From the IMG/VR virus record IMGVR_UViG_3300009285_002916, positions 1 to 23,380 of that record: 23,380 bases of DNA; one strand, 5' to 3'. The stretch is from a virus. A program made the position numbers and the translations under genes. Of this stretch, positions 7,276-19,065 are shown in pieces (the stretch's first letter is position 1; every line of letters starts with the position of its first letter). Under the pieces are notes generated by a model, which saw only the letters and a program-made list of their open reading frames with translations, did no database searches and was not told the DNA's origin.

Positions 7276-7833
7276 TTAAGCAAGAAGTTTTAAATTCGGC
7301 GCACTGTCAATCCATGAAACATCATTTGTAGAGAAAATAGAGGTGTTATAGTATCTGCAACCATAAAGCCGCGATTCTGATTTCTTACCACAAATCTGCA
7401 TCCCCATTTCGGTAAAAAATTTATGGTTCGGGTCATCCTCTTCAAGCTCACAATAAATCCTGTGAAACCCATAGCCATTGAAAAAATATTTCATCATCAG
7501 ATCAAAGAACAATTTTCTAGTGTGTTCATTTTTGCACAAAAAGTTGAAATGTGCATTGCGGTTTGTAAAATCAATTTGAAACAAATAGCACATACCATAA
7601 ATTAAGTTTCTATCAGGCTTGGAATTTTCTTTAGAGACTGTAAACCCATCAAAAACAAATGAATGAGAAGAGTCCATCCGTCTAATTGACTCGTCTGTAT
7701 GAAATTTATGGGATAAATCATAACGCCAGGAATCATAATCTCTCAACAGAGACATGATTGCCTTTGCATCATTAGCCAATGAAAATGGCCTAAGTTGAAG
7801 AACCATTTGTGTTTCTTTTTTTTCTTTACTCAA
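7276..7833 (-). CDS. GNAT-like acetyltransferase fold protein
   Basis: 185 residues if it starts at the TTG at 7833, which overlaps the upstream stop as TTGA and has AGGAG about 9 bases before it; an ATG at 7806 is the alternative. Seen: LQLRPFSLANDAKAIMSLL at the start, IYGMCYLFQIDFTNRNAHF in the middle, RKLFFDLMMKYFFNGYGFHR with IYCELEEDDPNHKFFTEMGM, in the order of GNAT strands and helices. The acetyl-CoA loop usually reading R/Q-x-x-G-x-G/A is not evident (NEHTRKLFF instead), so binding may be altered. Such proteins occur in phage late regions; the target is unknown. Confidence 0.6.
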   Translation of the reverse strand: MSKEKKETQMVLQLRPFSLANDAKAIMSLLRDYDSWRYDLSHKFHTDESIRRMDSSHSFVFDGFTVSKENSKPDRNLIYGMCYLFQIDFTNRNAHFNFLCKNEHTRKLFFDLMMKYFFNGYGFHRIYCELEEDDPNHKFFTEMGMQICGKKSESRLYGCRYYNTSIFSTNDVSWIDSAPNLKLLA

Positions 7834-8918: not shown

Positions 8919-10952
8919 TTACGGGTTCATTCGACGCCTCATGGCGTCTCTTTCGTTTCTCTCAAAGTCAAGGCGTGAGCCAACTTGGCTCACTTTCAAT
9001 ACTATATCAAGAGGCGTTCTTTGAGGGATCATACTTTGGGGAATAGTCTTTGGGGATAAAACCAACCCTTTTCTAGCTCTGGTTTTGAGTGCTTCTATAA
9101 ACGCCTCATTTGTAACTCCTTGATTGGTCGCTTTCAACAGTTCACGAAAAGCGTTACCGGCAGAGGTTCCCGATGAGGAAAGAACTGCTGGGCCGAATTT
9201 ATCGCCCAAATTAACAAGCTCCAAAAATTCAGTGGCTTCCGTGTCGTCCAATAGCTCGCGAAAGACATTACTTTTATTTCGTAGGCTATTTCGTACTTGA
9301 CGAAATGAAAAAGAAAAATCATCTCCACGCTTAATTATAGAGTTCAAAGCAGCACCTTTGATAATCGCCATGTCATCGGGGTTTAAAACGTCTCGCAATG
9401 ATTGAATCTTTTTGGAATCGCCTGATAAGACAAGCGAGCGAAAAACAGTCTCATCAGAAAGATTCTTGTTACCCAGGATTCGATCGAGAGGCGAAGACTC
9501 TTCTATAAATTTATGGATGATAAGATTGTTATCCTCAAGCCGTTTTGCAAGAGCCTTTCCACCCTCAACACTATCTCTTATAGTTCCAATTACACTGTTA
9601 CGAAGGCTGCCATAAAGTCCGCGTAGTTTGACAACGTCGGGCGGATCAAGGGCTAAAGTATTTGATTTTTTGAAAGCAGCGTCCCCAACGTTCATGAGAA
9701 CATCAATCGTTTGCGAAAAACGACCCTTTGTATTTTTCACGGACTCAATCGCACCCAATAGCTGTTTGGCTTGCGATTTTTGCTGAGAAGAAACACCAAG
9801 GCGTAGCCTTTTCTTGGCAAAAGAAGTCAATGACTCAAGAGTATTTTTAAGCTTGACTTTTTCTTTCGCGGAAAGCATTAACCCTGGTAGACTTTCGGAC
9901 ACCGTTCGATAGGTATCGTCCATCCCACCAAGCAAATCATCCAACGACGCATCGTAGGCTTTGCGGATGTAGGCTCCGGCCTCCGCTTCATTGAGAGGAA
10001 CACCACCAGAGATGTTTATGATTTTCTTATCAACACTTTCACGAACTGCCCTAAGACCATCTTCAAATTTATTTAGCGCTGCCTCACCTAGGACAGATTC
10101 TCTTTGTTGTCTGACAGCACGAGAAATAATTGACCTTTCCCCAAATTCAACGGACTCAGGAAGAATATTGACATCAATGCCGTTTTTCTCGGCAACCTGT
10201 TTCAATGCGGTGAAATCATCGGCGACTTTCGGGTTGAAAAGATTATTGAACGCAGTTTTTATACCCTCAGCGGTATTTTTTGCGACAGTTATGGGAACCT
10301 CTCCTGCAACCGTGCGAACTGCAAATTCCGCTCCCTTCCCAACCCCTTTGGCTGCTAAGCTAGCAGTTTTTCCCAAACCCTTTGCTGCGAGTTTGGCAGT
10401 ACCCACAACAGGGATAAAGTTTGAAACGTCACCAACAACATCAACTGCCAACCCTAACACTCGTGACGGAGATACTTCAATCTCCGTAAATTTCTTGCCA
10501 GGCTCAGCCACGCGCCTCATAATCTGCGATTCTCGATCCCTAAACCCTGGCGATAACGTCAATCCAAGAGGAAGTTTTATTTTTGTGTCCCGTGGCACAC
10601 CTGCGGCCTCGACAATTTCTTGACCACTAGGAGCCTTCTCAGGAGCTTCAGCAAACTGCGTCCCAAACGAGCGCACCGATTCTAAAAGACCGCCACCTTT
10701 CTGAAGTGTTCTAATTGCCGCACGAGTGGGAGCGCCAGTAATAGAGTCAACGGCACGCCCGAAGTCAACAACTGCTTTGATTGCTTTTTGACCAAGTGAA
10801 GGTTCATCATTTATTTTCTCGACAATTGATTGCCTGTGAAAATTTATTAAATCTTTTGTTGAAAACGATGAAAAATCATCCCGTACAGACTGTGGCTGCG
10901 TTAATGATCGGTGTTTTTCTATCAATTCCTTTGTTGATATCTCCTGCGGCAT
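8919..10952 (-). CDS. Large helical virion protein, probable ejection protein
   Basis: 677 residues, starting two bases after the stop of the preceding gene. Seen: a duplicated N-terminal motif STKELIEKHR (6-15) and STKDLINFHR (31-40); an Ala/Gly/Lys amphipathic stretch at about 186-217 with repeated AAKG-type units; then long helical regions with no enzyme motif recognised (no transglycosylase Glu motif or zinc protease motif found). Its position between the nozzle/coiled-coil genes and the fibre and its composition fit an internal (ejection) protein of a podovirus, of the kind released into the host envelope before DNA. The assignment is by context. Confidence 0.6.
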   Translation of the reverse strand: MPQEISTKELIEKHRSLTQPQSVRDDFSSFSTKDLINFHRQSIVEKINDEPSLGQKAIKAVVDFGRAVDSITGAPTRAAIRTLQKGGGLLESVRSFGTQFAEAPEKAPSGQEIVEAAGVPRDTKIKLPLGLTLSPGFRDRESQIMRRVAEPGKKFTEIEVSPSRVLGLAVDVVGDVSNFIPVVGTAKLAAKGLGKTASLAAKGVGKGAEFAVRTVAGEVPITVAKNTAEGIKTAFNNLFNPKVADDFTALKQVAEKNGIDVNILPESVEFGERSIISRAVRQQRESVLGEAALNKFEDGLRAVRESVDKKIINISGGVPLNEAEAGAYIRKAYDASLDDLLGGMDDTYRTVSESLPGLMLSAKEKVKLKNTLESLTSFAKKRLRLGVSSQQKSQAKQLLGAIESVKNTKGRFSQTIDVLMNVGDAAFKKSNTLALDPPDVVKLRGLYGSLRNSVIGTIRDSVEGGKALAKRLEDNNLIIHKFIEESSPLDRILGNKNLSDETVFRSLVLSGDSKKIQSLRDVLNPDDMAIIKGAALNSIIKRGDDFSFSFRQVRNSLRNKSNVFRELLDDTEATEFLELVNLGDKFGPAVLSSSGTSAGNAFRELLKATNQGVTNEAFIEALKTRARKGLVLSPKTIPQSMIPQRTPLDIVLKVSQVGSRLDFERNERDAMRRRMNP

Positions 10953-10953
10953 T

Positions 10954-11964
10954 CTAAGGCCCTGCCCCTAATTTCAACAGTTCGTTAAGGTATAAAATAG
11001 CGTCTCTATCACCAGACTCTGCACGAGCTTTAAGATCGGCGAACGCTGAAAGAGCCTCTTTTTGTGAAGTGTTTGGTTTTCTGACATTGAGCGACTCAAA
11101 ACCAAGATCAAGAACTACGCTAGATGGATCAATGCCACCCTCGTCGGCAAGTCTTCTGAATTCTGCATCAAGGCGTTTTTGACGCGACAAGTGAACAGTC
11201 CATAAGTCCTCGGCACGACTTACAAAATCTTCGCGCTGCTTATCCCCTAACCTCTCCCCAGTCAGAGCTTTATTGTAACTACGCCGAATCTGCTCAGGTA
11301 TTCCTGCCGTATTTTCAGCCGTTGCAAATTCACCTTCTCTAACCGTTGATCCTGGATCGAGTAGTTTGACGTAATTGAAAATCAAACTCATGTCACCAGC
11401 CGCCGACGGATCGGACGTACCTATGTCTCTAATTTTTCCAGCAGCTACAGAAACAAGCTGGGTCGTTTTTGTTTCTGGATTGGAAAGCCACTGCCTGCGA
11501 AGATCGTCTGCGATCTTGATTTTGCCAACCTTGTCAGTAGGAGCTTTAAATTTTGCTATCGCCTTTCCCGTCTTTGGGTCAACAAGTAAAGTCGTTTTCT
11601 GACCTCCTTCTTCCGTATCAATTTTTATTCCAGCCTCTTTGTCCTTTCGTACCATTAGATAAAGAGGCTTGTCGCTTCCAACTTCGCTAACTTTAAAAGA
11701 GCCAAGAGACGGAGTTTCCGAGCTTTCAAAATCCTTTGAAAACCCTAGAAGCTCAGGTTTTGTAAACTTACCTTCTCGTAGCCTTGTTCGTTCACTTTCT
11801 TTGAACTTAGTTTCCTTTGTCTCTTGCTCTCGCTTTATTTTAAAATCCTCTAGTTGAGCAATATTCGTTTTGATACCATAAATATTACTTGCGATTTGCA
11901 AGCCTTTCATGATCGTAGTCAGGGGATCATCTTTTCGCCTTGCTGGTAAAATGACCTGTGCCAT
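10954..11964 (-). CDS. Internal virion / ejection-type protein
   Basis: 336 residues; AGAGGA about 7 bases before the ATG, which shares one base with the upstream stop. Seen: a charged helical N-terminal region (about 1-66), a beta-like middle (about 85-145), and a conserved block DMSLIFNYVKLLDPGSTVRE (191-210), GEFATAENTAGIP (211-223), IRRSYNKALTGERLGDKQRE. The D-M-x-L-I-F-x-Y-x-K-x-L-D-P-G-S-x-V-R-E-G-E-F-A-T-A pattern recurs in phage internal virion proteins; a catalytic function for it is not known to me. It is one of four consecutive genes likely to form the ejection set. Confidence 0.65.
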   Translation of the reverse strand: MAQVILPARRKDDPLTTIMKGLQIASNIYGIKTNIAQLEDFKIKREQETKETKFKESERTRLREGKFTKPELLGFSKDFESSETPSLGSFKVSEVGSDKPLYLMVRKDKEAGIKIDTEEGGQKTTLLVDPKTGKAIAKFKAPTDKVGKIKIADDLRRQWLSNPETKTTQLVSVAAGKIRDIGTSDPSAAGDMSLIFNYVKLLDPGSTVREGEFATAENTAGIPEQIRRSYNKALTGERLGDKQREDFVSRAEDLWTVHLSRQKRLDAEFRRLADEGGIDPSSVVLDLGFESLNVRKPNTSQKEALSAFADLKARAESGDRDAILYLNELLKLGAGP

Positions 11965-12347
11965 TAGACTAATCCTCTCCGTTGCTCTTCAAGATACCTC
12001 GCTCTCATGATTGCAGGAGCATATTCCTGCCGCAAATCTTCAGGAAGATACGTCAAATTCTGCTCAGCGGATTTCAATGTCGCCAGATTATCTTGAGCAA
12101 TCTGCTGTTGTCGTCTCATGAGAGCCGTTGATTTTGATTCACTGCCGCCAGCCCTAGGTGTTTCCTTGGGCGGTTCGACGATATTTCCGACCATCCCACC
12201 AAGAGAACTGCCACCTGCTGCGCCAGCGATCGCACCAGGAGTGCCACCCGCTGCACCACCTGCAATTCCACCCGCGATGCCTCCACCTATTTCCAAAAGT
12301 TCTGCTAATTTGCTGCGCTTTGGCGGTGGCCTATAAACGTCTGCCAT
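11964..12347 (-). CDS. Glycine-zipper internal virion protein
   Basis: 127 residues, AAGGGG before the ATG. Seen: a basic, Pro-rich start (YRPPPKRSK), then a long run of small residues at about 20-57 with G-x-x-x-G and G-G-x-x-G-G spacing, the pattern of membrane-inserting glycine zippers, followed by a polar helical tail (RRQQQIAQDNLATLKSAEQN, YLPEDLRQEYAPAIMRARYL). Between the coiled-coil and ejection-type proteins this suggests a small component that enters the host membrane during DNA delivery. Function is inferred from composition and position. Confidence 0.65.
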   Translation of the reverse strand: MADVYRPPPKRSKLAELLEIGGGIAGGIAGGAAGGTPGAIAGAAGGSSLGGMVGNIVEPPKETPRAGGSESKSTALMRRQQQIAQDNLATLKSAEQNLTYLPEDLRQEYAPAIMRARYLEEQRRGLV

Positions 12348-12356
12348 AAAAACCCC

Positions 12357-13175
12357 TTAAAACCATCTTTTAAAAGTTTCCTCGACAAACGAACCGACTT
12401 TTTGTTGAACCGGAGTCAGGATCGTCTCGATCAAATCTTTTTCGCTCAATACTTTCTCGGCAAACTCGATATTTTTGTTATTGATTCTCACTTCTTCGGC
12501 GAATGTTCGGTCAAACTGATCTTGGGAAACATCAAATTGTTTTCTTGTCAAGTCAAATTGTCTTGCAAATTGCGACGCTTGTTGAGCCTGAGCCTTTGCA
12601 GTCTCTTGAGAGGAAAAAGCCTGGGCTGATCCTCGTTCCCGTGCAGAAAAATCTTGTGCTTCCCTTCTCTCGCCTGTTGCAAATCGTCTGCCAATTTCAG
12701 CTTGTGCCGCTCCAAATTCTCGCCCTGTTTTAGCCTCACCGCTCGCAAACCCCTGAGAGCCTAAACGCTCGCTCGTTGCAAATCTTCTTCCCAAGGCAGC
12801 CTCACCGCTCGCAAACCCCTGAGAGCCTAAACGCTCTCCGGTTGCAAACCGTCTTCCCAAAGCAGATTCCCCGCTCACAAACCCCTGAGAGCCTAAACGC
12901 TCACTTGTCTGGAACTGTCGTTGTTCTGCTAATTCCCTACGTCGTCTCAGTTCCTGCCTCTCTGCCGCGTTTATCCCTTCCCTGACATCACCGAGGGCTT
13001 GGCCTTCCTCTTGCTCGGCAAGACTTGCTTGCTTCAGTTGTATGCCCGAATCAAGATTTCCAAGAGAAGCAAATCGTCGCTGCAAAGCATCTTGTCTTGT
13101 TTGCAGTCTTACCTTGCTTTCTCGTTCGGCTCTCTTTCGTGCAAGTTCAAATTCGTCTAAGTCGGTGAATGCCAT
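12357..13175 (-). CDS. Hendecad-repeat coiled-coil virion protein
   Basis: 272 residues, GAGGG 7 bases before the ATG. Seen: a charged helical start, then ten successive 11-residue units from residue 88 to 197, each beginning with Phe (FATGERLGSQG, FASGEAALGRR, FATSERLGSQG and so on; the last is FSSQETAKAQA), then 7-residue units FDLTRKQ, FDVSQDQ, FDRTFAE at about 208-228, and a short C-terminal helix rich in hydrophobics. Eleven-residue periodicity suits a right-handed or nearly straight coiled coil. No enzyme motif. It directly follows the nozzle gene, so an internal tail or ejection-channel role is inferred. Confidence 0.68.
   Translation of the reverse strand: MAFTDLDEFELARKRAERESKVRLQTRQDALQRRFASLGNLDSGIQLKQASLAEQEEGQALGDVREGINAAERQELRRRRELAEQRQFQTSERLGSQGFVSGESALGRRFATGERLGSQGFASGEAALGRRFATSERLGSQGFASGEAKTGREFGAAQAEIGRRFATGERREAQDFSARERGSAQAFSSQETAKAQAQQASQFARQFDLTRKQFDVSQDQFDRTFAEEVRINNKNIEFAEKVLSEKDLIETILTPVQQKVGSFVEETFKRWF
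12717..12914 (-). repeat. Three tandem 66-bp repeats within the coiled-coil gene
   Basis: Three in-frame copies of a 66-bp unit (22 codons, two 11-residue blocks). A core of 24 bases is identical in all three, beginning at 12746, 12812 and 12878, exactly 66 apart; elsewhere the copies differ at a minority of positions. Identity at silent positions points to recent duplication. Confidence 0.85.
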
Positions 13176-13176
13176 A

Positions 13177-15081
13177 TCAAAACCCTCTGATATTATAGTA
13201 GAACGAAAGCCAATGGATTTTAAACCGTTGATTCACTACATTCATATTATCAAATTTAAATTTTATGCGCTTGCCGTAGGTTTGCCCCAAAGAAATCTGA
13301 AACATCTGTTGGTTGCGTCCCCCTCCCCACGAGTCAATCCCAAAACGCATCGTACCCCAGAGAGACCCACCAGGGTTAAGACTCACCGTTTTGGTTTGCC
13401 CTACACCGGAATCACTATCGACAATCCAACTTATCTTCATTGGATAGTTACCTGCTAAGTCTGCAAGAAAAACAAGCTGCGTGAAATCTTTTATGAAGTC
13501 TTCATGACCTCTTTCCCCTGTAAATTCTTTTGTCCAAAAATATGAATCAATCGCTGTACCATCATCACTGTAGGCCGATGTTTCAAGCCGGTAAATAAAA
13601 CCGTTTGCCGTAGAGCTGCCGTAGTAGAGCTTTCCGTCATAGATGGTGAATTGTGCTGCTTTAATCCCTGTAAAAGGGGTAAACGAAAATTTCTGATTGT
13701 TACTAAGTTTCTCAGTTGCGAAGTCGAAAAGATAAATTCTATTGTTCGTTGTATTCCCTGAATTATAGGTCACTGTGATATAAGCCTTGTTCTTGAAAAC
13801 AATCGAGCTTATGTTTTTGACATACGCTTCTTGGATGTTGAAAATGTCTGGCTCAATTCTTTCGCTCAAAAGATCGCTCGCAATAGAACTTGTCGTGAGA
13901 AGCGTTGCCGTAGGCTCAATGGCAATTCCCGAAACAGATGCAAAGCCAACCATCTTGGAATCTTGAATCGCAGGAAACCCAAGCCTGTTTCTCCATTTCC
14001 AAATGCCAAAGGTTGACTTGCAGCCGAAATTTGAACTGACTTTCCTCTGAAGCCATGTTGAGGCATCGCTAGACGGCATATAGTTGATGAAAATAGAATC
14101 GTCACAGAAGACCGTTAGCGTATCGTCAACAATCCCAAAACCTCTCACAAGATCGCTTGAAGCGTCTCCGACCTTGAAAAAGTTGGTGGAAGGAAACGTG
14201 AAAGGCTCTCCTAGTGCTGAGTACCAGACGTAATTTAAATTGGTCGAATCATTTACGAAAAGCCTGTTTTGATGATAAATACAAGCCGTAAACTTCGGAG
14301 GAACTCCGTTATCCGTCGGAGGTGCAGCCCCAAGAGTTGCCACCGTGTCATCATATGTTGTTGTCGTGTTATCGGCTAACGTCGTAACAAGCCCGTATGT
14401 CGTTCCCCCATTGTCTGATCTATAAATACGCCTAGATGCTACACCCCACGACTGAAGCCCTGTTGGAATGCTATTAATTCGTGCCGTAACATTTGCAGAC
14501 CCGAGAACAAGTGTTATTCCAGTGGATACATCACTTTCTGCTGTGTAGGAATTTCTAAAGCTGAATTTGTAAATTGGTGTTGTCGTTCCAATCGAACCTT
14601 GAGACGACCAACTAGCAAAACTTGCCGTGTTATTTGGCGAATAAACGCCCATTCTGGTAAACGCTGCACCATTCCACTTGTAGCCGATGACAGAGCTTGC
14701 CCCGACGAAAATGTTATCCCGATACTGTGCGGCAGCTATCCTTTCTCCCGCTGTAAAAACGCTTTCAGCGGAAGAAATCGTCACAAAGGTCGAACCAGTC
14801 AGTCCGTGCATACTGCCACCATGAAAGGCAATCATGGTTTCGGAACCGCCATCGTCTCGTCTTGTATAAAGTCCGTCACATACCGATGAGCCTACAAGAG
14901 TCGTGTTTAGCTTGGTACTTCCTAGACGTGTCGCTACAGAGCCAGCAGAGAAAACGACGTTAAGGCAGTCCGTACTTTCGGCACCATCAATAATCGAGCT
15001 TTCAAATTTCGAGTTAAGCCCTCCATCAAGTCTCTGGGGAAAGCCTCGTGGGTGCTTGATGTTGTAACGTGAGCTTGACAT
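13177..15081 (-). CDS. Tail nozzle / stabilisation protein
   Basis: 634 residues, GGAAG 8 bases upstream. Seen: an N-terminal GGLNSKFESSIIDGAESTDC and GSVATRLGSTKLN, the usual start of podovirus tail hub proteins, then repeated beta-strand units with short aromatic strands (RIYRSDNGGTTYG, NRLFVNDSTNLNYVWYSALG, DDTLTVFCDDSIFI, KLYYGSSTANGFIYRLE), consistent with a beta-propeller-like body, and a C-terminal beta domain. Length and position directly after the adaptor gene match the P22 gp10 / T7 gp12-type protein that closes the portal channel and carries the tail tip. Exact family cannot be fixed by eye. Confidence 0.78.
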   Translation of the reverse strand: MSSSRYNIKHPRGFPQRLDGGLNSKFESSIIDGAESTDCLNVVFSAGSVATRLGSTKLNTTLVGSSVCDGLYTRRDDGGSETMIAFHGGSMHGLTGSTFVTISSAESVFTAGERIAAAQYRDNIFVGASSVIGYKWNGAAFTRMGVYSPNNTASFASWSSQGSIGTTTPIYKFSFRNSYTAESDVSTGITLVLGSANVTARINSIPTGLQSWGVASRRIYRSDNGGTTYGLVTTLADNTTTTYDDTVATLGAAPPTDNGVPPKFTACIYHQNRLFVNDSTNLNYVWYSALGEPFTFPSTNFFKVGDASSDLVRGFGIVDDTLTVFCDDSIFINYMPSSDASTWLQRKVSSNFGCKSTFGIWKWRNRLGFPAIQDSKMVGFASVSGIAIEPTATLLTTSSIASDLLSERIEPDIFNIQEAYVKNISSIVFKNKAYITVTYNSGNTTNNRIYLFDFATEKLSNNQKFSFTPFTGIKAAQFTIYDGKLYYGSSTANGFIYRLETSAYSDDGTAIDSYFWTKEFTGERGHEDFIKDFTQLVFLADLAGNYPMKISWIVDSDSGVGQTKTVSLNPGGSLWGTMRFGIDSWGGGRNQQMFQISLGQTYGKRIKFKFDNMNVVNQRFKIHWLSFYYNIRGF

Positions 15082-18030: not shown

Positions 18031-19065
18031 TTAAAATAGGATTCTAATGTCTTTACTTTCTTTATCGTCAATCACTGGCTTAATGTTATCAGTTAAACTA
18101 AATCTCTCCAAGACGCACTCTAAATCCATCTGTTGAATGGTTCGGATATTTCCCTCGTTGTAGGCGCCTAAAATGCCCCCTTCTGTGCAATTTATATACT
18201 CTCCTGGAACCTTCATCGTTACAAACTCAAACCAGCACTTGAAATTGAAATAACTCTGCCATGTTGAGACTTTATTTCCAAAAATATCTGTAATTCTTAG
18301 TGCCTGCGCTCCTGGGTTGTCGTCTAAATCAGTTTTCCAGCCGTAGAACTTTTTATCATATGAGAAACTAAAATCCGCTCCCAAAAAGATCGTGGTAGAA
18401 CACCCAAGAAAAGCCTTTGCAATGTAAAGAGAAGCACCTAGGACGTTTCCACCAGAGGAAACATAGTAGGGGAATCTCTCAAGGGCATCGTGCGCTTCCT
18501 TGATCTTTTCGTCTGGAACGGGAGCGTTGAAAAAGTAAAGATTTCCCTTCCATTTCGTGAGAAGATTCGGATAAGAGCCTGTGTAGGTGAGAAGCGTTTG
18601 CCCTTTCGTTGCTTCCCAATACTCTTCAGGTGCCCTCGTGCCACCTTCCGAAACTTCTTTAATCGTAACTTCTCCCGCGTCAAGATTAACCCAATAGTCG
18701 ACCTTGACACCGAGATCATGCAAGAAGCCAAAATTGTGCAAGCAAGAGATCACAAGTAGGCCACGGTTTTCCTTCAGAAGATGGGCATTCTTTTTTAAAG
18801 AAGGCCCTGATCCCAAAAGTACGCATGGCCTGTGAAGCTCCTTCTTGAAAAGAAGTGCAATTGAGCGATCAGAAAACGGCTTAAAAACGGCATGATTCGC
18901 CTGTATTTGCCTGATCCACTGCTCCCGCCAAAACTCCAGGGTCGTCTTATCATTGCTGCAAGCCGTTTGATAGAGAACATCAGGGGGAACAGGAACGCCC
19001 TCGAAGTATGGTTGATAGACCAGGGGAACAACTGCCGTTTTAACCGTCTTCTGCTGTACAAACAA
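18031..19065 (-). CDS. DUF115 / MptE-like (Maf-type) family protein
   Basis: 344 residues from a TTG at 19065; an in-frame stop lies about six codons upstream and AAAGG is 7 bases before, so TTG is the only good start. Seen: PCVLLGSGPSLKKNAHLLKE (80-99), VDYWVNLDAGE (122-132), SSGGNVLGASLYIAKAF (203-219) and TIFLGADFSFS (225-235). This G-S-G-P-S-L plus G-x-V-x-x-x-A/L-A and L-G-x-D pattern is that of the DUF115 group, which includes archaeal MptE (pterin pyrophosphokinase-like) and bacterial Maf glycosyltransferases acting on flagellin. In this phage it sits among head genes, so a virion or host glycan target is possible. No substrate can be inferred. Confidence 0.75.
   Translation of the reverse strand: MFVQQKTVKTAVVPLVYQPYFEGVPVPPDVLYQTACSNDKTTLEFWREQWIRQIQANHAVFKPFSDRSIALLFKKELHRPCVLLGSGPSLKKNAHLLKENRGLLVISCLHNFGFLHDLGVKVDYWVNLDAGEVTIKEVSEGGTRAPEEYWEATKGQTLLTYTGSYPNLLTKWKGNLYFFNAPVPDEKIKEAHDALERFPYYVSSGGNVLGASLYIAKAFLGCSTTIFLGADFSFSYDKKFYGWKTDLDDNPGAQALRITDIFGNKVSTWQSYFNFKCWFEFVTMKVPGEYINCTEGGILGAYNEGNIRTIQQMDLECVLERFSLTDNIKPVIDDKESKDIRILF

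Follow-up and report, generated by a model that had tools for sequence, protein, structure and literature searches.

The protein of 272 amino acids encoded at positions 12357-13175 of a short-tailed phage of uncultured bacteria carries ten consecutive 11-residue blocks (hendecads), each opening with phenylalanine. On a modest balance of probability it belongs to the ejection (pilot) protein cassette of a P22/SU10-type podovirus, where it would form a long helical stalk within or alongside the conduit for DNA translocation. The DNA analyzed, referred to as the window, is the whole stretch of 23,380 nucleotides of IMG/VR record IMGVR_UViG_3300009285_002916, and this F-hendecad protein was also found in at least 20 relatives.

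The phenylalanine array

The ORF listing and its translation delimited the gene, within which the following features were recognized:

12357..13175, minus strand: F-hendecad protein, 272 aa (ORF; relatives with the same neighbours in at least 20 IMG/VR contigs)
13032..13097, minus strand: N-terminal turn motif RQDALQRRFASLGNLDSGIQLK, residues 27-48, between helices 5-38 and 43-117 (conservation; AlphaFold2 helix-turn-helix)
12585..12914, minus strand: ten-unit aromatic hendecad array, residues 88-197 (Phe spacing; predicted helix except for low-confidence residues 117-142)
12732..12902, minus strand: 66-bp tandem DNA repeat inside the array (22-residue unit, 2.6 copies, 90% match; repeat detection)
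12501..12569, minus strand: phase-shifted coda with Phe 203/214/225 (spacing 11) and 207/214/221 (spacing 7) (Phe positions)
12438..12503, minus strand: C-terminal segment FAEEVRINNKNIEFAEKVLSEK, residues 225-246, conserved in the closer relatives (alignments)

Phenylalanine occupies residues 88, 99, 110, 121, 132, 143, 154, 165, 176 and 187, ten at an exact 11-residue spacing, and in 5,000 shuffles of the protein the longest equally spaced Phe run, at any spacing from 2 to 39, was 6. The first-pass annotation had described ten Phe-initial blocks of 11 residues from residue 88 to 197, a description that proved accurate. The blocks follow the pattern F-A-[ST]-[GS]-E-R/A-x-x-G/S-Q/R-x. Part of the array is a young duplication, since three double blocks form the 66-bp tandem repeat. 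The repeat copies show both synonymous and non-synonymous differences, and the blocks outside the repeat have diverged and retain the Phe.

Phage type and gene neighbourhood

Pfam searches of the window gave matches to P22_portal (E=1.2e-27), SU10_adaptor (E=5.2e-20) and SU10_portal, and a weak match to SU10_MCP. Judged by these portal, adaptor and capsid matches, the phage is a P22/SU10-type podovirus. The genes around the F-hendecad gene are:

13177..15081, minus strand: putative nozzle-type tail protein, 634 aa, upstream neighbour (named from its place after the SU10-type adaptor and a weak 'phage stabilization protein' match)
11964..12347, minus strand: companion Gly-zipper protein, 127 aa, next gene downstream in relatives (11 GxxxG; synteny; 15-member alignment)
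10954..11964, minus strand: third cassette gene, 336 aa, phrog_13634, function unknown (E=1.1e-28; 17 relatives aligned)
8919..10952, minus strand: fourth cassette gene, 677 aa, helical (fold resembles injection and transglycosylase-fused phage proteins)
8070-8909: separate tail-fibre gene (phrog_11393)

The cassette thus runs from the 272-aa gene through those of 127, 336 and 677 aa, with the largest last. It lies directly downstream of the tail genes, and its order is conserved in relatives. The Gly-zipper protein combines its 11 GxxxG motifs with two hydrophobic Gly-rich segments and a weak Gly-zipper Pfam match (E=0.0085). The AlphaFold2 model of the 677-aa protein was confident over about residues 310-545, and a Foldseek comparison gave 19 matches at E<=1e-3, which include 'Injection protein', 'LT_GEWL domain' and 'Peptidase M15B'. 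Nothing was matched by this model in the PDB with Foldseek. At the sequence level the 677-aa protein had no PHROGs match, and its comparison with P22 gp16 was not significant (E=0.078).

Two other genes were noted in the window. An MptE-like/DUF115 gene (18031-19065, minus strand; PF01973, E=4.8e-22) is placed within the virion module, with the capsid genes on one side and the tail genes on the other, and its synteny holds in those relatives whose contigs extend that far. A GNAT acetyltransferase gene (7276-7833, minus strand; Acetyltransf_4, E=2e-5) adjoins the tail-fibre end of the structural module.

Family, synteny and unit number

Relatives were gathered by homology scans of IMG/VR and by a blind pattern search for four F-x3-E units set 11 residues apart, which was used instead of an earlier blind pattern (seven Phe at spacing 11) that returned mostly antisense or low-complexity frames. 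The F/E scan yielded 94 stretches, many with the same phage module: portal, scaffold, capsid, MptE-like gene, adaptor, nozzle, F-hendecad, Gly-zipper, 336-type and 677-type genes, as far as each contig extends. The order nozzle, F-hendecad, Gly-zipper, 336, 677 was present in at least 20 contigs and was recovered both by homology and by the blind pattern. No relatives were found in 84,980 bacterial and archaeal genomes, and therefore no host or prophage could be named.

The 22 family members have between 3 and 12 exactly spaced aromatic units, and 154 of the intervals from one aromatic to the next measure exactly 11 residues. In many members the start of the array lies 53 residues beyond a conserved N-terminal Phe; therefore, the unit number varies between fixed flanks.

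Predicted structure and helix packing

The AlphaFold2 model of the 272-aa protein, a monomer built from a shallow 20-sequence family alignment, has helices at residues 5-38, 43-117 and 137-271 (mean pLDDT 77, pTM 0.33). The helix that had been expected across residues 88-228 was accordingly predicted, as it was over nearly the whole protein, with the exception of residues 117-142. This stretch, made of Gly-rich blocks in the most repetitive part of the array, had a pLDDT below 50, and its prediction is unreliable. If it were one continuous helix, the region from residue 43 to 271 (229 residues) would measure about 340 A. The predicted turn at residues 39-42 falls on a conserved RRFAxxGxxxSGA motif. 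Within residues 27-48, G39 and G44 are invariant across 20 sequences and A30, R33, F35, A36 and S43 nearly so. A Foldseek search of the model against viral structures gave no match at E<=1e-3, as expected for long helices. The sequence had only a chance match in the PDB and none in Pfam or PHROGs.

Across 146 distinct blocks, position 1 is F/Y/W in all, position 4 (d) mostly G/S, position 5 (e) mostly E/Q, position 8 (h) a mixture of A/K/G/L and position 10 mostly R/Q. The canonical hendecad core, with hydrophobic residues at a, d/e and h, is absent: only a, always F/Y/W, is strongly hydrophobic. The array is rich in Gly and has a mean hydrophobicity near zero. Its amphipathic moment reaches or slightly exceeds the 95th percentile of shuffles in about half of the members, stays below that level in the others, and drops, by about half in most members, when the aromatics are replaced. 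The moment scan is no proof of helix, as a peak at 98 degrees (and at 65) arises with any 11-residue repeat. With a single strong hydrophobic residue per 11, and small or polar residues at d and h, the array is not a standard hendecad coiled coil.

A candidate ejection protein

Several lines of evidence point to the ejection cassette. Its synteny is conserved in at least 20 contigs, and the portal, adaptor and capsid neighbours set the phage type. The SU10 products gp20-24, whose genes come immediately after the tail genes, belong to the virion but are missing once the genome has been released (PMC9509320). By fold, the 677-aa model resembles 'Injection protein' as well as LT_GEWL-fused and peptidase-fused phage proteins, and the 272-aa protein is predicted to be helical. 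In addition, the Escherichia phages PTXU04 and Bas95 encode a protein with five aromatic hendecads that matched the family profile with 94% (PTXU04) and 90.6% (Bas95 gp27) probability, and Bas95 gp27, with an array of the same kind, matches phrog_917, the P22 gp20 family (E=1.8e-8). Three family members matched phrog_34374, 'pilot protein for DNA ejection', over their arrays (best E=8.4e-11). Matches that rest on the array alone may reflect convergent composition. When the F-hendecad family was compared by hhalign with P22 gp7, gp20 and gp16 and with SU10 gp20-23, none was significant (best E about 0.06). There is no aromatic hendecad array in the P22 and SU10 ejection proteins, and no description of aromatic hendecads in ejection proteins was found in the literature searched.

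We infer the following course for the 272-aa protein. It would be carried in the head, leave through the portal and tail channel before or with the DNA, and refold in the envelope into a long helical stalk, its N-terminal helix-turn-helix (residues 5-117) nucleating assembly. The aromatic hendecads would form a Phe ladder, one Phe per about 16.5 A of helix, along which several copies could pack side by side with the large Phe against the small G/S at position d. The Gly-zipper neighbour may supply the membrane-inserting segment, anchoring in a membrane, and the 336- and 677-aa proteins might make up the remainder of the conduit. The length of the array (3-12 units, or about 50-200 A) would then be an evolvable parameter. 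The decameric tube of Sf6 gp12, a P22 gp20 relative, with its 25-A channel (PMC4755594), is a plausible working analogue.

The position of the gene counts against this assignment, because it sits directly after the nozzle gene, in the slot of the tail needle in SU10 and P22 (gp18 after gp17 and gp26 after gp10, respectively). Given this position, the strongest rival is a tail needle or plug, that is, a coiled-coil trimer with which the nozzle is closed and the outer membrane pierced, like SU10 gp18 and P22 gp26. The long predicted helix would suit such a protein, and no other needle candidate is evident within the window. However, tail needles have dense heptad cores, whereas the array offers one strong hydrophobic residue per 11 and much Gly. 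A C-terminal beta knob was not predicted, the C-terminus of the model being all-helical, and hhalign gave no match to P22 gp26 or SU10 gp18. The array, moreover, recurs in the P22-gp20-like protein of Bas95 (gp27). We regard a needle as unlikely.

It seems more improbable that the protein forms a hendecad coiled-coil stalk in a tail fibre or baseplate fibre. Hendecads are common in phage fibres, and F-hendecads of the FxxNExxR type occur in large fibre-like proteins (L168, L185 and L216), in one of which NExxRxx heptads follow. Yet, these arrays differ in consensus, having R at position 8, and are parts of large multidomain proteins, the model of the 272-aa protein has no receptor-binding or beta domain, and the window phage has its separate tail-fibre gene.

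An 11-mer amphipathic helix lying on the membrane, of the perilipin, synuclein or apolipoprotein type, that would disturb the host membrane at entry was suggested by the 11-residue periodicity and the adjoining Gly-zipper protein, but was rejected as highly improbable because the moment, at or barely above that of shuffles and about halved without the aromatics, is too weak and the mean hydrophobicity is near zero.

Aromatic spacing after the array

The least probable of the alternatives is the one originally put forward, a single fibre or channel whose coil passes from right-handed hendecad to left-handed heptad packing. Past residue 187 the first Phe is at 203, a gap of 16 (11+5), followed by 207, 214, 221 and 225. 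The segments FDLTRKQ, FDVSQDQ and FDRTFAE do start at 207, 214 and 221, as the first-pass annotation had noted, and phiX174 H offers a precedent in its three hendecads, transition and eleven heptads (PMC7354561). However, the 7-residue spacing covers two intervals only and does not follow directly on the array, and Phe 203/214/225 are 11 apart after a 5-residue phase shift, so the coda is read equally well as further hendecads. Runs of at least three aromatics after the array had spacing 11 in 6 of the 22 family members and spacing 7 in 3, with other spacings in 0-1; the heptad reading is hence not a family feature, and a handedness switch shared by the family was rejected on these spacings. 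Positions d and h, as described above, are not hydrophobic. The observation of the repeat was thus largely right, and the interpretation as a coil switch is not supported. Of the proposed virion fibre or channel, the location comes close to what the gene context indicates, namely internal or ejection proteins of a short-tailed phage. A cleaner hendecad-to-heptad change than that of the window was seen in a large fibre-like protein (L185:7765-10437), where five FxxNExxR hendecads lead directly into NExxRxx heptads.

Aromatic hendecads in other phages

The only match of the 272-aa protein in phage records at E<=0.01 was the DNA-pilot protein of a microvirus (E=3e-3), in which a Gly-rich segment precedes aromatic hendecads. 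Among the phage records searched there was no close relative in culture. We looked for such arrays in 120 microvirus pilots collected by an unrelated motif. At least three aromatics at spacing 11 were present in 8 of them (four aromatics in 4); at other spacings the number was 0-2, and shuffling gave a mean of 1.1 with a maximum of 6. The enrichment is real, though a minority trait. In the clearest cases an N-terminal Gly-rich segment adjoins the array. One microvirus homology scan gave no match, and convergence is as likely as common descent to account for the likeness.

Five microviruses (L237, L254, L297, L340 and L217) have DNA-pilot proteins with at least four aromatic hendecads just upstream of an MSxTxxQRxxxDxxxAGxNP motif. 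After a motif similar to that of the window family, gp18 of Bacillus phage Pony (L233:9255-10508) has eight F/W at 11-residue spacing in a Q/N-rich, helix-like region; its gene lies three genes after that of a nozzle-like protein. Since Pony infects a Gram-positive host, the aromatic-hendecad pattern does not depend on an outer membrane. Unrelated phages also encode proteins in which, as in the window protein, an N-terminal 'RG..(G)..SS/SG' module precedes aromatic hendecads; the module may mark a wide class of internal virion proteins. It is carried by the following:

L145:10615-11742
L166:3247-4281
L177:1615-2916
L183:5334-6725
L186:2-880
L201:652-2169
L112:185-1867

Significance of the aromatic signature

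Ejection proteins of short-tailed phages evolve fast, and most are unrecognizable by sequence. The spaced aromatic signature can be read from raw DNA; it found the cassette in many uncultured phages without a homology search and flags possible ejection proteins in other phages. A broader idea, which we hold doubtful, is that aromatic hendecad helices beside a Gly-zipper membrane segment could be a recurring modular design of viral DNA-translocation conduits, set out over two adjacent genes in dsDNA short-tailed phages and within one pilot protein in some ssDNA microviruses, with unit number setting conduit length and with an aromatic-on-glycine packing perhaps unseen in solved coiled coils. 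If the stalk lines or braces the conduit, the natural variants of 3-12 units would allow a direct test of conduit length against the host envelope. A helix packing with a single Phe and a single small residue in every 11 would likewise merit a structure of its own if the stalk reading is true.

Comparison with known systems

The cellular hendecad coiled coils of the F-h-E-h type (RFxxhExxhDx proteins) came up with the same F/E pattern and resemble the phage array in having F at position 1 and E at position 5. They also have hydrophobic residues at d and h, as a hendecad core needs, whereas the phage array has G/S and A/K/G there.

With the P22 ejection proteins gp7/gp20/gp16 (Sf6 gp11/12/13; T7 gp14/15/16) the window cassette shares a cluster downstream of the tail genes, a P22-like portal, the largest protein in last place, one small Gly/hydrophobic protein and a helical character. 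However, the P22-type cassette has three genes instead of four, its proteins have no aromatic hendecads, and there is no significant sequence match.

SU10 (Kuravirus), with its gp20-24, is linked to the window phage by the SU10-type adaptor, portal and capsid matches. The motif LAQQFAGQQGSGAR is present in SU10 gp22, which also ends in a Gly-rich C-terminus; hhalign aligned that motif alone, which was not significant. SU10 differs in having no aromatic hendecads and many more genes; no transglycosylase gene was seen in the window cassette.

The pilot proteins of microviruses (VP2), including phiX174 H, share with the 272-aa protein the presence of hendecad helices, in their case in a DNA-pilot protein. 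The phiX174 H hendecads, with Gln at positions 1 and 8 and hydrophobics at 4 and 7 (PMC7354561 Table 1), have no Phe, and this is an ssDNA phage. The long heptad region that follows the hendecads in phiX174 H is absent from the 272-aa protein, in which two 7-residue intervals occur and the 11-residue spacing continues. Finally, microvirus pilots hold the Gly-zipper within one chain, whereas in the window phage it is encoded by the neighbouring gene.
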